Part shown: positions 23,563-37,285 of the stretch, piece by piece
Layout: each line of letters starts with the position of its first letter
Numbering within the stretch: the stretch's first letter is position 1
DNA from: a virus
Direction: 5' to 3' (one strand)
IMG/VR virus record: IMGVR_UViG_3300046808_000835
Coordinates: 1 to 55,838 of that record
DNA: 55,838 nt
Notes under the pieces: model-generated
What the model saw: only the letters and a program-made list of their open reading frames with translations
What the model was told of the DNA's origin: nothing
The model's database searches: none
Program-made: the position numbers and the translations under genes

Positions 23563-24321
23563 ATGACTAAAAAATACTCGATTGACTCATTACCACATCA
23601 AGAACTTGTAAAGCTTTCCGACTCACAATTAACTGAGTGGTGTGATACTAATAATGTACACGCCCAACACACCTGGCTGTTGCCACAAATCGTGGCAAGG
23701 ATGTCAAACTGGACACCACAACGAACTGAGGGTCGACTAGACCCATTTGAAACACTTAGACTGGGTTGCGTAACCACACTAGACCAACTGTGCTGGAGGC
23801 TAGCTAGACTGCCCAGAAGTGCGTTAATTAAGGGTCAGGTAGCCAATCCACAGTATTCACAACTGGTACCACTTATACTACTAGCATTCAAGCAACAGTT
23901 TGGGATCATGTATAGTAGTTGGCAAAACTCGCAGCGACTAGATTTAGTGTTAGAACCCAAACTGTATGAAATGGTGAACCTTAGTCTAGAGCAAAGGGAA
24001 GTTGTTAACGGTTTAGGGTCAGAACAACTACTAGAGCTTCGTGATCATGGTTTGTGGAACTCACGAACACAAAAGCTGAAAAGTGCTACTAGTACCTGGG
24101 CACTTAGTCGTGTTGCAGGTACTCCACTAGCCGGCTTACCTAAACTTACACAAACCATTTTAACCCAAATTTGGCTAGCACATCCCACAAAGCGTAACTC
24201 AAACATGATCCTAGATCCACTCAACTGGGATCGTATTCCACCTCCACTAGTTTCACCGGAACCTCTGCTCGAAACCACCACAACCACTACCACCGACACT
24301 TACAAACTGCCATGGCTGTAA
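23563..24321 (+). CDS. Unknown 252-residue protein
   Basis: Trp-rich, mostly helical; DPFETLRLGCVTTLDQLCW and LVPLILLAFKQQFGIMYSSW are striking segments; a Thr-rich tail (ETTTTTTTDTYK) precedes the stop. Preceded by the folded leader, so translation may be regulated. Overlaps the HTH gene by 10 bp. No family recognised. Confidence 0.6.
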   Translation: MTKKYSIDSLPHQELVKLSDSQLTEWCDTNNVHAQHTWLLPQIVARMSNWTPQRTEGRLDPFETLRLGCVTTLDQLCWRLARLPRSALIKGQVANPQYSQLVPLILLAFKQQFGIMYSSWQNSQRLDLVLEPKLYEMVNLSLEQREVVNGLGSEQLLELRDHGLWNSRTQKLKSATSTWALSRVAGTPLAGLPKLTQTILTQIWLAHPTKRNSNMILDPLNWDRIPPPLVSPEPLLETTTTTTTDTYKLPWL

Positions 24322-24620
24322 AATATACCAAAGAAATCGTTGAAGAAATTGTTCGTGACTATGAAGCAGGCCGTCCAGTTGCAGAGATTGCACAACAGCT
24401 GGATGTACCTGAACGTAGTGTAATTGCTAAGTTGAGTTCGCTTGGAGTGTACAAGCGCAAGCAATATGTTAACAAAAATGGTGAAGCTCCTGTTAAAAAG
24501 GAGGTTTACATTGGTCGTATCGCTACACTGCTAGATGCCAACATTGAACTCTTAGACTCACTGGAAAAGGTAAACAAGCGAGTGCTTGTTATGCTTATGG
24601 AGGCACTGGAGTCGAAGTAG
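24312..24620 (+). CDS. HTH protein, family member 1 of 3
   Basis: 102 residues. YEAGRPVAEIAQQLDVPERSVIAKLSSLG is a sigma-like or resolvase-like helix-turn-helix; the rest (VYKRKQYVNKNGEAPVKKE) matches the two minus-strand paralogues at 25299 and 28462. Similar small HTH proteins occur in T4-like and marine phages. Likely DNA-binding, target unknown. It flanks the origin candidate on the left. Confidence 0.7.
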   Translation: MAVKYTKEIVEEIVRDYEAGRPVAEIAQQLDVPERSVIAKLSSLGVYKRKQYVNKNGEAPVKKEVYIGRIATLLDANIELLDSLEKVNKRVLVMLMEALESK

Positions 24621-24679: not shown

Positions 24680-24713
24680 GCCACAGGTTTAACAACCTGT
24701 GGCATTTTTTTTT
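24680..24713 (+). terminator. Terminator closing the plus-strand operon
   Basis: GCCACAGGTT / AACCTGTGGC stem followed by A and nine T. Confidence 0.92.
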
Positions 24714-24800
24714 GACCCTAAACTGCAACAAATCACAGTTTTGGGTGCCATGTGTCAAATTTTCCACAATTAAACACAATTATTGCAGTTTAGGGTCAAA
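24711..24800. repeat. 18-bp inverted repeat with GACCCTAAA core
   Basis: TTTGACCCTAAACTGCAA at 24711-24728 and its exact complement at 24783-24800. The core GACCCTAAA recurs at about 24825 and, inverted, near 24898, giving two inverted pairs across the left half of the intergenic region. Candidate binding sites. Confidence 0.75.
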
Positions 24801-24883
24801 CAAACGAAATTAAGTACTTGACACTGACCCTAAACTGTGGTAGTCTGGGTTGGGTGACCAGTGTGTAGAATTTTCGTGGAGTT

Positions 24884-25003
24884 TTTGCACTGGCGCCGGT
24901 TTAGGGTCGAACGCAAGAATTTGCACTGGCGCAAAACACATGCACACACTAGTTTTTGCACTGGCGCAACATTAACGGATTCGTCAAGATTTTGCACTGG
25001 CGC
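24884..25003 (+). repeat. Four iterons, candidate replication origin
   Basis: The 13-mer TTTGCACTGGCGC occurs four times in the same orientation, at 24884, 24920, 24955 and 24991, i.e. every 35-36 bp (about 3.4 helical turns). Iterons in phase on the helix are typical sites for an initiator protein. They lie in a 678-bp convergent non-coding region flanked by palindromes and two HTH genes. No initiator gene is recognisable in the window. Confidence 0.75.
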
Positions 25004-25149: not shown

Positions 25150-25185
25150 TTGACACCACGGAATTTTATGTGATAAAATTGGCGC
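25150..25185 (+). promoter_or_regulatory. Repeated promoter-like element, copy 1
   Basis: TTGACA, 18 bp, TAAAAT, then TTGGCGCG. Followed by the hairpin TGTTGCA / TGCAACA. One of eight plus-strand copies in the leftward-gene region. Confidence 0.75.
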
Positions 25186-25235
25186 GTCAAGTGTTGCATT
25201 TTTGCAACATGTAAAAAGTGAGCGCTCACTTTCAA

Positions 25236-25294
25236 AAAGTTTTAAAAAAATGCCTGCATTGTTAATGCAGGCATTTAAAAGGGCTTTCGCCCCG
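25236..25294 (-). terminator. Tandem hairpins at the convergent gene ends
   Basis: AAATGCCTGCATT / AATGCAGGCATTT with T/A runs on both sides, then GGGC TTTC GCCC. Bidirectional; ends the minus-strand HTH gene. A GTGAGCGCTCAC palindrome lies just left. Confidence 0.8.
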
Positions 25295-25298
25295 TTAA

Positions 25299-25628
25299 TT
25301 AAACCGGCTTTGAATTAGCCAGTGCGGTGAAAATCGCTTTAAGAGCCGATTTATTGGCTTTAGTAAGCGAATCAGTATCCGATTCACTCAATTGCAGAAT
25401 CGCGCCAATTGCATCAGCGTGAGCGTCTTTTTTAACAGGCTTTTCGCCAGTTTTAGAAACATACTCTTTTTTCTTATAAACTCCCTCACGCGAGAGTTTA
25501 GCCACAATCGACCGAACCGATTTTCCCATGCGATCAGCGATAGATTCCACGGATTCACCGACCAGATAACCAGCGACGATATCTTGAGTTTGTTCCGGAG
25601 TGTAGTTCACAGTTTTAGTTGCAGCCAT
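25299..25628 (-). CDS. HTH protein, family member 2 of 3
   Basis: 109 residues from MAATKTVNYTPEQ; LVGESVESIADRMGKSVRSI is the HTH, followed by VAKLSREGVYKKKEYVSKTG and a helical tail. Very close to member 3 and more distant from member 1. Internal ATG chosen: the promoter -10 (25710-25715) lies inside the longer frame. Probable regulator of the repeated elements, by proximity only. Confidence 0.72.
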   Translation of the reverse strand: MAATKTVNYTPEQTQDIVAGYLVGESVESIADRMGKSVRSIVAKLSREGVYKKKEYVSKTGEKPVKKDAHADAIGAILQLSESDTDSLTKANKSALKAIFTALANSKPV

Positions 25629-25709
25629 TTTCAAGCATCCTTTTTGGATTGTATCAGAAAACCCTTTCGGGCGGTTCAGGCTTTGCTTTGTGCTCTGCCC
25701 ATGAAAAGA

Positions 25710-25738
25710 ATTATACAGGAAAACCAACCGGCGGCCAA
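25710..25738 (-). promoter_or_regulatory. Promoter of HTH gene 2
   Basis: TTGGCC, 17 bp, TATAAT on the minus strand; back to back with repeat copy 2. Confidence 0.65.
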
Positions 25739-25815
25739 CAACAAAATTTTATATGTATATAGCAAATGGTTATATGCACAAAAACAACAGATACAAAAAA
25801 TTTACAATGTTCTGC

Positions 25816-25854
25816 TTGACACGGGCAAAATTATAATGATATAATTTTGGCGCG
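25816..25854 (+). promoter_or_regulatory. Repeated promoter-like element, copy 2
   Basis: TTGACA, 18 bp, TATAAT, then TTTGGCGCG; preceded by AAAATTTACAAT. Points toward the terminator at 25885-25915. Confidence 0.75.
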
Positions 25855-25884
25855 GTTTTTGCTGCACTGCAACATAGAATCCGA

Positions 25885-25915
25885 ATAAAAAAGCCGGATT
25901 ATCTCCGGCTTTTTG
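25885..25915. terminator. Bidirectional terminator
   Basis: AGCCGGA / TCCGGCT stem flanked by A6 and T-rich tracts; ends the metallopeptidase gene and would stop transcripts from repeat copy 2 after ~65 nt. Confidence 0.85.
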
Positions 25916-26263
25916 TTAATCAATATCCAATTCTGAATAATAAACGTTCGTTAACGCAAAACGCTTTTCCATCTTTTTAGCCAATCGCATAAAGTGTTTA
26001 CCGTGAATTTCAGTTAAACCCTTTTCTGCCTGATAAGCGTGAATCAATTCATGGGCCAAAAGTGTATTAAATTCTCGGTCAAAATCTGAATTACTGCAAA
26101 CATAAAAACGGATTATGTGACGTTTAACTTTGCCATTATCACGCATTTTAGGCCAGTATTCAGCATCATATTCAGACAATTTGCAGAATCTGAATTGTAT
26201 ATCAACCGGCTTTTTAAGTTTTAAAAAACTCACAAAATCGTTTAACAGATTAACGTCAATCAT
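25916..26263 (-). CDS. SprT-like zinc metallopeptidase 1
   Basis: 115 residues. H71-E-L-I-H75 in LLAHELIHAYQ, with a third ligand among HGKH (87-90) about 12 residues later, the gluzincin layout of SprT/WLM-type proteins. Small enough to be little more than the catalytic core. Coupled by ATGA overlap to the upstream PQ-loop membrane protein. Substrate unknown; host-protein cleavage is conceivable. Confidence 0.72.
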   Translation of the reverse strand: MIDVNLLNDFVSFLKLKKPVDIQFRFCKLSEYDAEYWPKMRDNGKVKRHIIRFYVCSNSDFDREFNTLLAHELIHAYQAEKGLTEIHGKHFMRLAKKMEKRFALTNVYYSELDID

Positions 26264-26508
26264 TTTTTACCCCAAATTTTAAAGTATAGCATAACATTTA
26301 CAACCCCAAAATTAGCCACATAATTAAAAACTAAGGGCCAATCGTTTCGGTCAATAGTATATATCAACATGAAAACTTCTGCAAAAAACCAGCAAAGCAA
26401 AAATGCCCAGGATAATCCTGCGCTAGATTTATCCTGATAACATTTAACAGCCTGCGGTATTCCACATATTGCAAACAATGTGCTACCGATCCATGCGATT
26501 GCTTCCAT
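26260..26508 (-). CDS. PQ-loop (SemiSWEET-like) membrane protein
   Basis: 82 residues, three hydrophobic segments (about 4-22, 32-52, 60-78). ICGIPQAVKCYQDKSSAGLSW carries the PQ motif and the downstream K-S-x-x-hS-W pattern of PQ-loop/SemiSWEET transporters, which dimerise to move sugars or other small solutes. In a phage it may alter nutrient flux; not proven. First gene of a two-gene unit with the metallopeptidase. Confidence 0.72.
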   Translation of the reverse strand: MEAIAWIGSTLFAICGIPQAVKCYQDKSSAGLSWAFLLCWFFAEVFMLIYTIDRNDWPLVFNYVANFGVVNVMLYFKIWGKK

Positions 26509-26552
26509 TTTTAAATTACCCTTTCGATTGTGGCAGTTAAAAGAAAACGGTC

Positions 26553-26601
26553 ATTATAATATACCGTTTCAAACCGCTTTGCACTTATTAAGTGCAAAGC
26601 G
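26553..26601 (-). terminator. Hairpins between exonuclease and PQ-loop genes
   Basis: CGCTTTGCACTT / AAGTGCAAAGCG (12 bp, 26575-26601) after the exonuclease stop; an AAACGGT / ACCGTTT palindrome (about 26546-26569) surrounds a TATAAT (26553-26558) reading leftward, a possible operator-promoter for the PQ-loop gene. Confidence 0.6.
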
Positions 26602-26623
26602 ATAATCAGGCAAATATAGAATC

Positions 26624-27316
26624 TCATTTAGCCGTGAAATTATCTTTTACCTGAAACTTGCGCCAATCATAACGCACCACATTATCCTGCCATTTACGAC
26701 GATTAACAATCTTTTGCAGGATAGGCAATTCAAAATCTCGCGCATCTTCTAATGCGGTATGCGGTTCAGTTTTAAATGAACCAGTAATAAAACCAGCGAC
26801 ACATTCGGCATTGGTTTTAAACGTCATGTTACCGTGTTCTGTCACACGATTAAATGCGTGATTATCAACGCAGAATTGACGATATTTTTTGGAATTGCAG
26901 ATATTACCGACTGCGGCTTGCCACAAACAAAACTTACTATTAAACCCGGAAAGGTCAATACCAGTATTGGCACACTTGTCCGAATCAAACGCTAGATTGT
27001 ATGCGGTAAGCATAGGATTATATTTTGCAACGGCTTGAATAAGCCAGCGATTAATAGCAGACACTGATGCCATAATACGATGGCCGGAATCCAGCATTTC
27101 ATTATAACCCTGCCGCTTTTGCTCGGCATATTCACGCGACCATTCTGCGCGAGAATTGGGAATATAAAAAAGGGATTTAGAATCGAAATGATCTTTTACC
27201 AGTACGGCACACTGATTGAAAATTTCACCGTGACGATCAACGATAACGCAGGCAAAATCAGCCACAGTATCATCAATGGTAGTTTCGGTGTCAATAATCG
27301 CAAAATACTTTTTCAT
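26624..27316 (-). CDS. DnaQ-like DEDD 3'-5' exonuclease
   Basis: 230 residues from MKKYFAIIDTETTIDD. Exo I is D9-T-E11; Exo II probably the Asp in YNLAFDSDKC; Exo III is HTALEDARD near residue 205. Together these are the metal-binding DEDDh residues. It degrades single-stranded DNA or RNA ends; as a stand-alone enzyme it could serve repair or host mRNA/oligonucleotide turnover. Start supported by AAGG six bases upstream and a promoter 61 bp upstream. Confidence 0.82.
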   Translation of the reverse strand: MKKYFAIIDTETTIDDTVADFACVIVDRHGEIFNQCAVLVKDHFDSKSLFYIPNSRAEWSREYAEQKRQGYNEMLDSGHRIMASVSAINRWLIQAVAKYNPMLTAYNLAFDSDKCANTGIDLSGFNSKFCLWQAAVGNICNSKKYRQFCVDNHAFNRVTEHGNMTFKTNAECVAGFITGSFKTEPHTALEDARDFELPILQKIVNRRKWQDNVVRYDWRKFQVKDNFTAK

Positions 27317-27376
27317 GGAAAACCTTATACCGGAAAACGCCGGATAGTCGCGTGTGGCAGTGCCGCCACAGAAAAG

Positions 27377-27405
27377 AGTATACACCCAATCCCAAGACTG
27401 TGCAA
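27377..27405 (-). promoter_or_regulatory. Promoter of the exonuclease gene
   Basis: TTGCAC, 17 bp, TATACT on the minus strand; back to back with repeat copy 3. Confidence 0.7.
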
Positions 27406-27463
27406 GCCAGGCATCATTGAATTTTTCTATCGCGCCCATAGAAAATTTCAATCGGCCAGGGTC

Positions 27464-27501
27464 TTGACAAACTCAAAATTTTATGGTAAAATTTTGGCGC
27501 C
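27464..27501 (+). promoter_or_regulatory. Repeated promoter-like element, copy 3
   Basis: TTGACA, 17 bp, TAAAAT, then TTTGGCGCC; a GGTGTTGT / ACAACACC hairpin follows. Tandem with copy 4, 85 bp apart. Confidence 0.75.
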
Positions 27502-27548
27502 GTGGGTGTTGTAAAAAAACAACACCACAAAAAATTTACAATTTTTTC

Positions 27549-27585
27549 TTGACACGGCCGAATTTTATATGATAAAATTGGCGCC
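27549..27585 (+). promoter_or_regulatory. Repeated promoter-like element, copy 4
   Basis: TTGACA, 18 bp, TAAAAT, TTGGCGCC. Followed directly by CTCAATTGCCTA / TAGGCAATTGAG and six T, so a transcript would be about 40 nt. Confidence 0.8.
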
Positions 27586-27619
27586 TCAATTGCCTAAAAA
27601 ATAGGCAATTGAGTTTTTT
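27585..27619 (+). terminator. Terminator right after repeat copy 4
   Basis: 12-bp stem with a five-A loop, then TTTTTT on the plus strand; its last bases overlap the stop of the next minus-strand gene. Confidence 0.82.
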
Positions 27620-27788
27620 AAATTGTCACAGTATCCTCAACCGTAAAAATTTCAATAGTACTATATCCCAAATCGTATTTTAGCAATTTGCGGTAATCTT
27701 CAAAGATTCTGTCATAATCACAATTTTCTGTGAGAATATCCAATTTGCCGGAATCGTCATCATAAAAACCCACAATGCAATAATTCAT
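27618..27788 (-). CDS. Unknown 56-residue acidic protein
   Basis: Start MNYCIVGFYDDDSG chosen for AAGGA seven bases upstream. Acidic, beta then helix; one base after the HAD gene stop, so cotranslated. Not assigned. Confidence 0.58.
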   Translation of the reverse strand: MNYCIVGFYDDDSGKLDILTENCDYDRIFEDYRKLLKYDLGYSTIEIFTVEDTVTI

Positions 27789-27789
27789 T

Positions 27790-28263
27790 TCAGTGTCCTT
27801 GAAAACTTGGGCAAAATACTGGTTTGATTTGCGGAAAACGATCACAAACTGCCATCAGATAATCACGATTATCCTCATAAAAAGCCCATTCCGCTTTTTG
27901 GAATTGTGGCAAGTTAAAAAACCGGGCCAATCCGTTTGATTTAAGGGTTTTACCGGATTGTGAATCATTAGGCTTGCGAGAGATAATATAATCAGGCCGA
28001 CCCAAAACCGTATCAATAAAACGTGCATCTGGACGATTAATAACTCGCGCAGTGGCAATAATCACATAAGTATTAGGGCAAAGTAAATCGCGCTTATATT
28101 GATCGGCCAATGGCAAGAGTTTATCCTGCATTGCGCGATACTCATTAGCACGCCAGTATTCTAGATCAATACGTTCCGTGCCGTCCAGATTTTTGATTGT
28201 GCGATACCTGTGCAAACTGTCCACAATAGTACCGTCCATGTCGTACACTTGAACCCGTTTCAT
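27790..28263 (-). CDS. HAD-superfamily phosphatase
   Basis: 157 residues from MKRVQVYDMDGTIVDS: D8-x-D10-G-T motif I; IIATAR (motif II Thr); a Lys in RKPNDSQSGKTLKSNG region; EDNRDYL with the acidic motif IV. Typical small phage HAD, like polynucleotide 3'-phosphatase or 5'-nucleotidase domains. Substrate not readable. The promoter -10 is at 28297-28302, which excludes the earlier ATG. Confidence 0.75.
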   Translation of the reverse strand: MKRVQVYDMDGTIVDSLHRYRTIKNLDGTERIDLEYWRANEYRAMQDKLLPLADQYKRDLLCPNTYVIIATARVINRPDARFIDTVLGRPDYIISRKPNDSQSGKTLKSNGLARFFNLPQFQKAEWAFYEDNRDYLMAVCDRFPQIKPVFCPSFQGH

Positions 28264-28370
28264 CGTTTGTTTTCCGTTGTTTGTTTCCATGAGAGAATTA
28301 TACACGAGCCACACAATCCTGCAAGCAACAAAAAATTATTAGCACATGAAAAAAAGTTGCTTGAGATGCC

Positions 28371-28409
28371 TTGACACCAGCAAATTATATATGATATAAT
28401 TTTGGCGCC
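28371..28409 (+). promoter_or_regulatory. Repeated promoter-like element, copy 5
   Basis: TTGACA, 18 bp, TATAAT, TTTGGCGCC; then hairpin CAAGTGTGGT / ACCACACTTG (28411-28436). Confidence 0.8.
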
Positions 28410-28461
28410 GCAAGTGTGGTAAAAATACCACACTTGACCAGCAGGTTACAGTCTGCTAGGG

Positions 28462-28776
28462 TTAGGCTTGCAACGCCTTGAGAATTGCAGCCAATGCAGA
28501 TTTATTGGCTTTTGTCAAACTTTCGGCATCACTTTCCGACAGTTGCAGGATTGCAGCGATCGCATCAGCCTGAACATCCTTGCTTACCGGACGCTCGCCA
28601 TTTTTGCTAACGTACTCTTTCTTTTTGTACACGCCTTCGCGTGACAGTTTAGCCACAATCGAACGAACCGATTTGCCCATTTCCTGAGCAATAGATTCGA
28701 CAGATTCACCGGCCTGATAATCAGCCACGATTTTCAGGGTTTGCTCTTGCGTGTAGTTTACGGTCTTTTCAGCCAT
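28462..28776 (-). CDS. HTH protein, family member 3 of 3
   Basis: 104 residues, MAEKTVNYTQEQTLKIVADY, HTH at QAGESVESIAQEMGKSVRSI, then VAKLSREGVYKKKEYVSKNG. Almost the same as member 2 through the first 75 residues. Own promoter (TTGCGC, 17 bp, TATAAT, 28838-28866). Confidence 0.74.
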   Translation of the reverse strand: MAEKTVNYTQEQTLKIVADYQAGESVESIAQEMGKSVRSIVAKLSREGVYKKKEYVSKNGERPVSKDVQADAIAAILQLSESDAESLTKANKSALAAILKALQA

Positions 28777-28924
28777 TTGAAGCACCTTTTAGGTTATAAC
28801 ACAAATTCGATCAGCCCCGCGCCAACCGATAAAAACAATTATACAGAACAGAACCCAGTCGCGCAAGTGTGAAATGTAAAAGGTTTGTGTTGCTTACTTC
28901 CACAAAAAATTTACAATTGACGGC

Positions 28925-28962
28925 TTGACACCAGCAAATTATATATAGTATAATTTGGCGCC
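28925..28962 (+). promoter_or_regulatory. Repeated promoter-like element, copy 6
   Basis: TTGACA, 18 bp, TATAAT, TTGGCGCC, then hairpin ACAAATGCCTAA / TTAGGCATTTGT (28963-28989). Confidence 0.8.
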
Positions 28963-28993
28963 ACAAATGCCTAAAAGTTAGGCATTTGTAACT

Positions 28994-29209
28994 TTAAAAA
29001 TTCCAGTTTATGATCGCAATTGAATTTGCTACCAAAAAACTAGCCTGTAAAAATGCTAGGTTATATTGACGGAATCTAACGGCAGTTAAAAAAAGAATTA
29101 TGCTGCTAACAAAAAACAGTGGAATTGCGCCGGTTGGCAGTTTGAATGCCAGCAAAAAACTGCCCACAATTCCAAAACTTACGCCAAAAATTTCCAAGAG
29201 TTTGTTCAT
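28994..29209 (-). CDS. Small membrane protein, PnuC/YgjV-like
   Basis: 71 residues with three hydrophobic segments (about 6-24, 28-46, 50-68) and a C-terminal SIAIINW, as at the end of small inner-membrane proteins of the YgjV or PnuC type. Function unknown. Overlaps the upstream SprT-like gene by one base. Confidence 0.58.
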   Translation of the reverse strand: MNKLLEIFGVSFGIVGSFLLAFKLPTGAIPLFFVSSIILFLTAVRFRQYNLAFLQASFLVANSIAIINWNF

Positions 29210-29598
29210 TATACTTTATCCATTCTGTGATAGCGTTTCGGAGCCAGTCCATAGTTTAGCATGATTTTTTGCCAATTTTTACCGTGTCCGCATTTCTTTT
29301 CACTTTCACCGTACAGGTTAAAATCTACTTGATGGGCCAATTCATGCGGCACAATTTCATGCGACATAATTGTGAGATATTCCGGGCTATGCAGCCAAAA
29401 ATTAATGCCAAATTCAATACGATTGCTTTGTTGAAAACACAATCCTGCGGTAACTTTTAGTCTGCCGTTTAGTTTAATTTCCGGCATTTCAAAATGAGAT
29501 AGTTCAGGATACAGCAATACAAATTTTTGCCAGTGACGCTGGCAAATTGTCCTGACCGTGTTGGTCAGTTCTGTGCGCTGTGATTTTGTGAGAGCCAT
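29209..29598 (-). CDS. SprT-like zinc metallopeptidase 2
   Basis: 129 residues. H85-E-L-A-H89 in VPHELAHQVDF with H105 in CGHGKNW, the classic SprT layout; LKVTAGLCFQQSNRIEFGINF precedes it as in SprT. Different from metallopeptidase 1 except for the motif, so not a recent duplicate. Again paired with a small membrane gene. Confidence 0.82.
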   Translation of the reverse strand: MALTKSQRTELTNTVRTICQRHWQKFVLLYPELSHFEMPEIKLNGRLKVTAGLCFQQSNRIEFGINFWLHSPEYLTIMSHEIVPHELAHQVDFNLYGESEKKCGHGKNWQKIMLNYGLAPKRYHRMDKV

Positions 29599-29678
29599 GA
29601 AAAGATTATAGCACAGTGCGACAGGCCAACAAGCAACAAAATTTCATTAGCATATAGCAAAAAGTTGCTTGCAGCCTG

Positions 29679-29715
29679 TTGACACCAGCAAATTTTATGT
29701 GATAAAATTGGCGCC
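29679..29715 (+). promoter_or_regulatory. Repeated promoter-like element, copy 7
   Basis: TTGACA, 18 bp, TAAAAT, TTGGCGCC, then hairpin TTGCCTAA / TTAGGCAA. Upstream it shares AGCATATAGCAAAAA and TTGCTTGCAGCCTG with copy 8. Confidence 0.8.
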
Positions 29716-29746
29716 CGGATTGCCTAAAAATTAGGCAACCTTACTT

Positions 29747-30043
29747 TTAAATGGTAATCTTTTGCGCTGGAAATTGGATTGAACCGTCATATTCTAATTG
29801 GTCGCGCTCATAACTGGTAAGATAATCGTCCTCATGCAAACTCCAATCAATAATCCATTCACGGAAATATTCATTGTCGCATTCAATTTGCGGTTTAGCA
29901 CGCAAAATCAGGTTATGCAATGAAACATAATCGACACGCTGAACATTTTCAATCACATAATCGTTCCCGCCTTTAGCCTTCCAGTAAGGCTTATCGGCAT
30001 CGCCATAGTTTTCCATTACTTGAGTTTCGATCACGATTTTCAT
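29747..30043 (-). CDS. Unknown 98-residue protein
   Basis: MKIVIETQVMENYGDADKPY, KGGNDYVIENVQRVDY; acidic, alpha/beta. Similar openings (KIVIETQ..ENYG) appear in small proteins of other phages; function unknown. Confidence 0.6.
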   Translation of the reverse strand: MKIVIETQVMENYGDADKPYWKAKGGNDYVIENVQRVDYVSLHNLILRAKPQIECDNEYFREWIIDWSLHEDDYLTSYERDQLEYDGSIQFPAQKITI

Positions 30044-30054
30044 ATAAAACCCTT

Positions 30055-30285
30055 TTAGATATACTCTGACCCGCCGCCATAATCTTCATCAGTACCCCAG
30101 CCTGCGGATGCTAGTGCATCTGAATCATCATTATAGTCCGGTTCTGAATCACTGTCAAGCGGAGCGATTCCGCTTTCGATTGCTTCCATAACCCAAGACT
30201 CGGGAATGTCGAGCCATTTAGCAATCTCGGCCACAGTCATGCCATCTTCAATGCCATCACAGATATTCATTTCAAGATCAGTCAT
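30055..30285 (-). CDS. HTH protein with acidic tail
   Basis: 76 residues. MTVAEIAKWLDIPESWVMEA is a helix-turn-helix; the C-terminal half is Asp/Ser/Gly-rich. May bind DNA or, with the acidic tail, a basic host factor. One base after the next small HTH gene. Confidence 0.6.
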   Translation of the reverse strand: MTDLEMNICDGIEDGMTVAEIAKWLDIPESWVMEAIESGIAPLDSDSEPDYNDDSDALASAGWGTDEDYGGGSEYI

Positions 30286-30286
30286 T

Positions 30287-30409
30287 TTACTTCCTCACAA
30301 TTTCACGAACAAGGTACACGGAAATGTTATATTTTGCAACCAGTTGCATGATGGTCATGCCCAGTGCATAGTCACGCTCGATCAGGGGAACCGCTTGTTC
30401 TAGACTCAT
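30287..30409 (-). CDS. 40-residue HTH-like peptide
   Basis: MSLEQAVPLIERDYALGMTI then MQLVAKYNISVYLVREIVRK, shaped like a single helix-turn-helix. GGAGC ribosome-binding site, adjacent to the acidic-tail HTH gene. Confidence 0.55.
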   Translation of the reverse strand: MSLEQAVPLIERDYALGMTIMQLVAKYNISVYLVREIVRK

Positions 30410-30510
30410 TTCATTTGCTCCGTTCAACATGGAAACAGTATAGCATACCGAGCACAGTGTACAAACGACTTTTTGTTATTAGCATATAGCAAAAAATTGC
30501 TTGCAGCCTG

Positions 30511-30548
30511 TTGACACGCACAAAAATCATATGATATAATTTGGCGCG
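30511..30548 (+). promoter_or_regulatory. Repeated promoter-like element, copy 8
   Basis: TTGACA, 18 bp, TATAAT, TTGGCGCG, then hairpin TCAAGTGTGGTA / TACCACACTTGA (30549-30576). Confidence 0.8.
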
Positions 30549-30579
30549 TCAAGTGTGGTATTTTTACCACACTTGAATT

Positions 30580-35338: not shown

Positions 35339-37285
35339 ATGGTAGACCGCAATCAAATGCTGTATTTAAACAGCACAGTTACCAAAGCCGAGCCCTCTAA
35401 TCCTGATGATGACAGTTTAGTTATTAGTGGTTACGCAAGTACCGTAGATGCAGACCGTCATGGTGATGTGGTAAGTAGTGCTGCTTGGCAGCGTGGTTTG
35501 AATAACTACTTGAAAAATCCTATTATTCTAGCATTTCATAATCATTCAATGCCTATCGGTCGTATGGTAGAGCATAGAATTGATGAGCGTGGTTTGTGGA
35601 TTAAAGCTCGTATTTCTAAAGCCGCTTCCGCAGTTTATGAATTGGTAAAAGACGGCATTTTAAGCGCATTCAGTATCGGATTCAGAGTTGTTGATGCTGA
35701 GTATAATCAATTAACAGAACTATTTGTTGTAAAAGAACTGGAACTGCATGAAATTAGCGTTGTAAGCGTCCCAGCAAATCAAGAAACACTATTTAGTTTA
35801 GCAAAAGCGTTTGACACTCACTCCGAGTACAAACAGTTTAAGTTGCAATTTGCACCCGAAAGCGAATCAGCTAAAGGGCTAGAATCCTCAGTGGAAGCAA
35901 ATAGCATATCAATTAGTAAGGAATGGAATATGACTCCAGAAGAAATGAAACAAGCAATGGTTGATGCTGCTCGCCAAGCCGCCGAGGAAGCTGCTAAGGC
36001 AGTTGTAGCCGAGCAACAGAAAGCCGCCCAAGCCCTGGCTGCCCAACAGCAAGCCGAGCGTGACTTAGAAGCCAAGATCAAAGCTGCCGTTAGCGCAACT
36101 GTTGAGACTGGTGTTAGCGGTGCAGAGAAGCTGCTTGCTGAAGTTGAGAAGCGTTTTGCTGAACAAGCTGAGCAAAGCAAGAGCGCAATCGCTGGTTTAG
36201 AAGCTGCTCTCAAAGAGAAAGCTGCTGAACTCGAAGCAATTCAGAAGAGCAAGATGCAGTTTAGCGACAAGAGCGGTGACACCGTTTCTTATTCCGACAA
36301 AGAGAAAGCTGTTCTGTTAGCTCGCATGAGCAAGAAAAGCATTCTTGAGACCAAAGTTGGTCGTGAGCTTGTACAAAAGTACGGTGCACACGTTCCTTCA
36401 GCCACTTGGGAACTCGAAGTTTCTACTAACCTAGAAAACGAAGTTCGTCAGCGTTTAGTTGTAGCACCTACAATGCGTGCTATCACAATGCAAACCAATG
36501 TAATGACAATTCCTGTTAATCCAGAGTCTGGTGTTGCAACCTGGGTTCAGAATGCTAACTTTGGTGCAGCTGCTAGTGCTGGTAACAATGCTACACACGC
36601 ACTTAAAGAAATCACTCTTAATGCATACAAAGTTGCTACCAATGAGTACGTAGCCTTCGAAGAAGAAGAAGACGCTCTGTTAGCAATTATGCCTGTTATC
36701 CGTGATGGCATGATCCGTCGTGTTGCTCGCGCTGTAGATCGCGCTTTCTTACGCGGTGCCGGTGCTGGTGCTGATCCTGTTAAAGGTATCGGTACATACG
36801 ACGCAGCCAGTGCTGTAAACCTCGATATCGACGGTGCTACACTTGCTGCTGGCAGCTATGCCAAAACCACAGTTGCTACCCTGCGCGATATGCGTAAAGA
36901 TCTAGGCGTATGGGGTCTTGATCCTAGCGAGCTAGTTTACATTGTTTCTACCGATGTATATTACGAGTTGCTCGAAGACACCAACTTCTTAACAGTTGAC
37001 AAAGTTGGTGATCGTGCCACAATCTTAACCGGTCAAATCGGCTCTGTTGCTAATACACCAGTATTAGTAAGCGGCGAGTTTGATGCTAAGGGTGCTGGTG
37101 CCATGGCTGCTGTTTGCTTTGCACCTGCTAACTTCTTGGTTGGCAATCAGCGCGGTCTCCGTGTTGACACCGATGACTTGATCGAGACACAGCGTCGCGT
37201 AATGGTTGCAAGCCTGCGCACTGGTCTTACACAAGTTACCACAAACTACGGTCAGGGCGTAAGCACCTTACGTTACGTAGCTTAA
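35339..37285 (+). CDS. Prohead protease fused to major capsid protein
   Basis: 648 residues in one frame. Residues 25-160 are an S78-type prohead protease: GYASTVDADRHGD, catalytic His in AFHNHS (67/69), Ser112 in SAFSIGF and an acidic residue in ELHEISVVSVPAN. Residues ~198-310 form an Ala/Glu-rich coiled coil (delta/scaffold domain). The rest is an HK97-fold capsid protein. An ATG at 35930 (residue 198) has AAGGA seven bases upstream, so a 451-residue capsid precursor is probably also made internally. Protease would then cut off the delta domain. Confidence 0.9.
   Translation: MVDRNQMLYLNSTVTKAEPSNPDDDSLVISGYASTVDADRHGDVVSSAAWQRGLNNYLKNPIILAFHNHSMPIGRMVEHRIDERGLWIKARISKAASAVYELVKDGILSAFSIGFRVVDAEYNQLTELFVVKELELHEISVVSVPANQETLFSLAKAFDTHSEYKQFKLQFAPESESAKGLESSVEANSISISKEWNMTPEEMKQAMVDAARQAAEEAAKAVVAEQQKAAQALAAQQQAERDLEAKIKAAVSATVETGVSGAEKLLAEVEKRFAEQAEQSKSAIAGLEAALKEKAAELEAIQKSKMQFSDKSGDTVSYSDKEKAVLLARMSKKSILETKVGRELVQKYGAHVPSATWELEVSTNLENEVRQRLVVAPTMRAITMQTNVMTIPVNPESGVATWVQNANFGAAASAGNNATHALKEITLNAYKVATNEYVAFEEEEDALLAIMPVIRDGMIRRVARAVDRAFLRGAGAGADPVKGIGTYDAASAVNLDIDGATLAAGSYAKTTVATLRDMRKDLGVWGLDPSELVYIVSTDVYYELLEDTNFLTVDKVGDRATILTGQIGSVANTPVLVSGEFDAKGAGAMAAVCFAPANFLVGNQRGLRVDTDDLIETQRRVMVASLRTGLTQVTTNYGQGVSTLRYVA

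Follow-up and report, generated by a model that had tools for sequence, protein, structure and literature searches.

We describe a conserved intergenic module in a virus record of IMG/VR (IMGVR_UViG_3300046808_000835, positions 1 to 55,838; this whole stretch of 55,838 bases is hereafter the window). The module comprises a putative, very strong and near-perfect promoter of the host sigma70 type. This promoter is located at the 3' border of almost every short transcription unit of early-type genes and would fire back against that unit. As judged from the DNA sequence, such a strong opposing promoter would limit or terminate the unit that it faces and insulate the next one, a reading to which we assign a probability of about 40%. 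The best matches of the large terminase are T5-type (Demerecviridae) Vibrio phages, at no more than 48% identity, and the element-bearing group consists of uncultured viruses of bacteria that are distant relatives of phage T5. Contigs of element-bearing relatives reach about 100 kb, and the window may thus be part of a genome.

In the mechanism that we propose, host RNA polymerase would occupy the element or initiate there, and collision, roadblock and, where the hairpin downstream of the promoter fails to terminate, antisense RNA would stop the unit's transcription or limit it. Read-through would be kept from the next unit, whose own promoter sits back to back with the element. A palindrome over the -10 hexamer may let it close into a cruciform or hairpin, or may be bound, and so act as a switch. 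The simplest explanation for a complete promoter that dozens of genomes retain, and that faces the 3' end of a neighbouring unit almost without exception, is that polymerase fires or is held at the site. Brophy and Voigt (2016, PMC4731013) describe a synthetic part of the same layout, in which a terminator and reverse promoter at the 3' end of a gene repress it through collisions and antisense RNA; opposing transcription is favoured for this reason. Behind it we rank regulation by a helix-turn-helix (HTH) or iteron-binding protein, then small RNAs, origin-linked roles and, last, shuffling joints.

Copies in the window and in related viruses

All eight copies lie on the plus strand, within a block of minus-strand genes, and read TTGACA-N17/18-TA(T/A)AAT-N0-2-TGGCGC; each range given here opens with TTGACA. 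Copy 1 (25150-25210), which adjoins the iterons, reads TTGACA-N18-TAAAAT-TGGCGC (25150-25185) and has a hairpin at about 25191-25210. Copy 2 (25816-25915; TTGACA-N18-TATAAT-TT-TGGCGC at 25816-25853) has a weak hairpin (z = 0.0), past which a canonical bidirectional terminator lies at about 25885-25915. Copies 3 and 4 stand in tandem in one intergenic region, so that the eight copies serve seven junctions. Copy 3 (27464-27528) reads TTGACA-N17-TAAAAT-TT-TGGCGC (27464-27500), with a hairpin at 27502-27528, while copy 4 (27549-27619) reads TTGACA-N18-TAAAAT-TGGCGC (27549-27584), with a 12-bp hairpin at 27585-27613 followed by T6 (z = -7.4). Copy 5 (28371-28436; TTGACA-N18-TATAAT-TT-TGGCGC at 28371-28408) has its hairpin at 28411-28436, and copy 6 (28925-28989; TTGACA-N18-TATAAT-T-TGGCGC at 28925-28961) at 28963-28989. 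Copy 7 (29679-29740) reads TTGACA-N18-TAAAAT-TGGCGC (29679-29714), with a hairpin at about 29717-29740, and copy 8 (30511-30576) reads TTGACA-N18-TATAAT-T-TGGCGC (30511-30547), with a hairpin at 30549-30576. Exact TTGACA-N16..19-TATAAT strings occur seven times in the window, against 0.1 expected by chance, and four of the seven are element copies.

This agrees with an earlier sequence-only reading of the stretch as to the eight copies, their positions on the plus strand opposite minus-strand genes, and the spacer (18 bases in seven copies, 17 in copy 3). The hairpin that it placed soon after most copies is found directly 3' in seven of the eight, copy 2 being the weak case. Its TATAAT holds for copies 2, 5, 6 and 8, copies 1, 3, 4 and 7 having TAAAAT instead; its GGCGCC follows the -10 in five copies, with GGCGCG in copies 1, 2 and 8. 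The claim that the element opposes every gene cassette was slightly overstated: seven junctions carry it, and no copy occurs at 26509-26623 or beyond 30.6 kb. What that reading overlooked is the AT-rich inverted repeat over the spacer and -10, in which the -10 is mirrored.

The sequence-only reading had let its proposal depend on conservation in related phages, and the element does recur there. A first pattern scan of IMG/VR gave at least 120 stretches with the element, and the pooled set, which includes the window, spans 181 loci of IMG/VR and holds at least 474 distinct copies; these counts, and those on orientation below, come from contigs selected by pattern, many of them akin, with mechanical gene calls. 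No record among cultured phages and plasmids had a match spanning over 80% of the consensus, and bacterial and archaeal species genomes gave zero exact matches to one strict pattern. Being present in IMG/VR phages and absent from these searched collections, the module has probably gone unnoticed so far.

Orientation is equally consistent. In all 113 loci with two or more copies, every copy lies on a single strand, and open reading frames (ORFs) of 150 aa or more that lie between copies are antisense to the element in 90 cases and sense in 4. The modules between elements hold one to three gene families (HAD/polynucleotide-kinase-like, nuclease-like, SprT-like, PQ-loop and HTH). Gene-family pairs that stay together never hold an element between them (28:0, 27:0 and 10:0), while junctions between modules usually do (13:1, 19:10 and 13:6), and the modules occur in differing orders with elements at the junctions. 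A putative gene-direction promoter, TTGCTT...TGTATAAT (28294-28330, minus strand), lies back to back with the element ahead of the gene at 27790-28263; this site and those at 25710-25740 and 29610-29640 (TTGCTT ... TGTATAAT) presumably recall T5 early promoters (P-N25).

Promoter parts and the mirrored -10

In the orientation of the element, the parts are A/T tracts, TTGACA, an AT-rich inverted repeat, TGGCGC, a variable hairpin and the stop codon of the opposite-strand gene. The A/T tracts are phased, at about -56 to -48 and -45 to -41, and resemble an UP element. TTGACA is mostly followed by C and GC-rich bases, and TGGCGC sits 0-2 bases past the -10. At TTGACA...TGGCGC sites found with the -10 left unconstrained, TATAAT or TAAAAT is present in 261 of 269, and an extended TG (as in TGnTATAAT) precedes the -10 in 186 of 269. 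Two relaxed scans gave a similar picture: with no requirement for the -35, 159 of 160 palindromes have one with at most one mismatch, and with no requirement for GGCGC, this motif follows the promoter-palindrome in 132 of 134 cases (five of them past one extra T). The -10/-35 promoter is thus under selection. It has the features of strong rRNA-like sigma70 promoters, namely a consensus -35, a 16-18 bp spacer, a consensus -10, UP-like tracts and a GC-rich discriminator.

With +1 assumed to lie seven bases past the -10, the predicted plus-strand starts are 25186, 25852, 27499, 27585, 28407, 28961, 29715 and 30547. GGCGC is therefore the discriminator rather than the 5' end of the RNA, and the RNAs starting with GGCGCC that had been forecast are off by several bases, since the predicted start coincides with one of the final bases of GGCGC(C) or follows it directly. 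The base that follows GGCGC is C in 58% of copies and A in 31%.

The inverted repeat over the spacer and -10 takes forms such as CCAATTTTATATGATAAAATTGG or CCAAAATTATATGATATAATTTTGG. Among copies whose left arm is of the ATTATA or the TTTTA type, ATTATA is paired with a TATAAT -10 in 101 of 101 and TTTTA with TAAAAT in 41 of 41. The number of T residues after the -10 (0, 1 or 2) tracks the number of A residues in the left arm (2, 3 or 4), with few exceptions, and the spacing from arm to arm varies at about 18-21 bp. The conserved trait is thus symmetry rather than one fixed sequence. Because symmetry is kept while sequence and arm distance vary, a hairpin or cruciform, or mutational correction of the palindrome, is favoured over a simple dimeric operator. 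For the -10 palindrome, neither the tally of G-U pairs nor the folding energy gives a clear strand preference. Pairing is absent, with the promoter retained, in 50 of 240 distinct copies, roughly a fifth; copies near the origin carry an iteron-like half, TTTGCACT, in the spacer in place of the palindrome. The covariation poses a sharp, testable puzzle: what constrains this promoter to stay perfectly palindromic while its sequence changes.

Mirror symmetry that stays exact while the sequence changes is the expected outcome of palindrome correction, and together with the varying module order and the position of elements at junctions it could point to a repeated joint for cassette recombination, with palindromes kept by template-switch correction and not by function. 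TTGACA and the UP-like tracts are conserved too, however, although they lie outside the palindrome; recombination needs no fixed orientation against genes; and neighbour diversity across elements is not clearly above that of element-free neighbours. We regard such a joint as very improbable.

Downstream hairpins and the fate of the antisense RNA

Past GGCGC comes the variable hairpin and then the antisense stop codon, at a median of 67 bases from GGCGC. A perfect stem of 8 bp or longer is found in 61% of copies but in 1% of shuffled ones, and stem sequences vary among copies, even inside one genome. The hairpin is followed by at least five T on the element strand in 52 of 267 copies and on the gene strand in 43 of 267, the shuffled control giving none on either; canonical gene-strand terminators are rare. 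On the element strand, 90 of 249 copies have a canonical terminator within 150 nt, a far higher frequency than in more distant bins. As terminators are found in a minority of copies, some copies should yield a short RNA, whereas transcripts from others should extend into the gene as antisense RNA.

This strong promoter directly followed by a hairpin, with the excess of nearby terminators and the terminator-like hairpins of window copies 4, 7 and 8, would suit a model in which each copy makes a short RNA (30-150 nt) with a 5' hairpin, acting in trans or as a stable decoy. Yet the stems differ within a genome and most copies have no U-tract, the non-Watson-Crick pairs of the hairpin lean weakly to G-U on the gene strand rather than in the element RNA (19 vs 6), and a search of Rfam gave only three weak matches, all below the gathering threshold. 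We give this model little credence, and the tiny hairpin RNA put forward by the sequence-only reading is not supported as a general product. Its further suggestion, that the element titrates RNA polymerase, was likewise not supported.

Several points count against the opposing promoter at unit ends. Each of its functional steps is deduced, and the element-strand terminators near about a third of the copies would stop the antisense RNA. Interference leaves the covarying palindrome unexplained, as it does the invariance of GGCGC and its sharing with the iterons. Moreover, most copies have a hairpin that is no canonical terminator, and units would therefore have to end by some other means. We speculate, with more doubt than for the role at single unit ends, that opposing promoters could serve as punctuation across the whole cluster in place of classical terminators, with a -10 that hairpin or cruciform formation can mask; they would end, tune or silence phage genes by head-on transcription, possibly under the control of D5-like regulators or supercoiling. 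If the elements are transcribed, this would be a widespread natural case of head-on transcription, built into a phage gene cluster at almost all of its unit ends. To our knowledge, head-on transcription as a regulatory principle is known mainly from single loci and synthetic circuits.

Some sequences around the hairpins resemble known binding sites. Hairpin sequences AAATGAGAATnATTCTCATTT recall what we take to be Fur boxes and GTGAGCGCTCAC a symmetric LacI-family operator, perhaps by chance, perhaps as decoys; such lookalike sites were seen in loci L034, L044, L067 and L082, in L061, L112 and L117, and at 25218-25231 of the window. A perfect palindrome like the parS site of ParB, GTTTCACGTGAAAC, lies just past the hairpin in relatives (31 of its 33 occurrences are near an element), 60-100 bases after TTGACA in L029, L031, L056, L112 and others. 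It was not found in the window.

Regulators, origin and comparison with known systems

Three HTH paralogues are encoded near the elements in the window. The first (24312-24620, plus strand) lies on the far side of the iterons. The second (25299-25628, minus strand), a candidate regulator, matches PHROG 323, 'transcriptional regulator, D5-like', and its 3' end faces copy 1; the third (28462-28773, minus strand), of the same family, has its 3' end facing copy 5. Among the matches listed from the first scan, the family stands beside elements in 101 of 120 loci, often as two to four paralogues. The proteins resemble the D5-like PHROG 323 and show weak similarity to the GcrA DNA-binding domain. A predicted model has six helices and good confidence, and a fold search returned generic HTH matches only, none with E <= 0.001.

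The iteron-type repeats, four in number (TTTGCACTGGCGC, 24880-25003, plus strand), adjoin a 25-bp inverted repeat, TTTGACCCTAAACTGC (24707-24804), and the region as a whole (24707-25003) is likely a replication origin; the terminase of this phage is T5-like. As the sequence-only reading had noted, TGGCGC is common to iterons and element; orientation is shared too, with 34 instances of TTGCACTGGCGC in the same direction as the element and none in the opposite one.

The frequent HTH neighbours, their D5-like and GcrA resemblances and the shared TGGCGC could indicate an operator, at which the paralogues or an iteron-binding protein would act as a switch on the antisense promoter or as a roadblock on the gene strand, between early and late infection. 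Stoperators of cluster A mycobacteriophages, which such a site would resemble, likewise occur in a single orientation relative to transcription (PMC6550527). The arms vary in spacing and covary in sequence and length, which is unexpected for a dimer with fixed half-sites, and the fold search gave no specific structural match. We consider this operator unlikely. Stoperators contain TTGACA on the opposite strand. The many intergenic sites in one orientation are a likeness; the element differs in being a complete consensus promoter with a -10, GGCGC and hairpins, and has candidate regulators only.

Because the cluster adjoins the iterons, sharing TGGCGC and its orientation, and origin-proximal spacers carry TTTGCACT, a role in replication or packaging may also be envisaged. 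Leading-strand priming transcripts, secondary initiator sites or T5-type nick sites would explain the one-strand polarity outward from the iterons, and nicks in T5 and tf are confined to one strand (PMC3517423). The copies lie at gene-module junctions, antisense to genes, however, and no turn in the GC skew of the window coincides with the iterons. The element resembles T5 single-strand interruptions in polarity and in a PuGCGC core. We nonetheless rejected a T5 nick site, since the consensus R/GCGCRGG (PMC3517423) is unmatched past GGCGC, its RGG part being absent, and T5 sites have no promoter. An origin-linked role thus seems quite improbable.

The remaining comparisons, with promoter-early stem-loops (PeSLs) and bidirectional promoters, draw on PMC4503421 and PMC12825309. 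PeSLs of T4-type phages, mentioned in PMC4503421, combine a promoter and a stem-loop at many intergenic junctions, and module shuffling is proposed for them. The element shares with them this pairing at one junction, its repetition among small accessory genes and the shuffling of modules, and differs by GGCGC and by the palindrome that mirrors its -10. So far as is known, the gene that follows is the one transcribed from a PeSL promoter. Identity with PeSLs was rejected, because the promoter of the element opposes the genes (90 antisense to 4 sense) and the terminase is T5-like, not T4-like.

Bidirectional promoters with a symmetric -10, as reportedly described by Warman et al., share the mirrored -10; in the element the symmetry is exact and extends past the -10. 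A bidirectional promoter was rejected because the gene-strand side has no -35 (score 2.19 vs 2.44 shuffled). Strong sigma70 promoters of the rRNA/tRNA type share the UP-like tracts, consensus hexamers and GC-rich discriminator, whereas the element has a spacer palindrome and neither a downstream gene nor a known stable RNA. The synthetic antisense part is alike in having a stem-loop and then a strong constitutive reverse promoter at the 3' end of a gene, and bidirectional terminators abolish its repression (PMC4731013). It is man-made, and the natural element differs by the -10 palindrome, the invariant GC discriminator and its repetition at most unit ends. No tested family fits, because PeSLs fail in promoter direction, bidirectional promoters in the -35, T5 nicks in their consensus and Rfam in score. 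The parts of the element are of known kinds, while their combination (natural reverse promoters at unit ends, a mirrored -10, an invariant discriminator and a single strand) matches no family tested.

Other genes of the window were noted in passing. The accessory cluster holds two genes of the SprT-like metalloprotease family (25916-26263 and 29209-29598). A permuted transfer-messenger RNA (tmRNA) gene with the tag ANDEVYALAA was found by ARAGORN at 2292-2682, inside a tRNA cluster; phage-encoded tmRNA is unusual. Lastly, in a 648-aa ORF (35339-37285), prohead protease-like and major capsid-like parts are, by eye, seemingly fused, unlike in T5 and PG07, where the two are separate genes.

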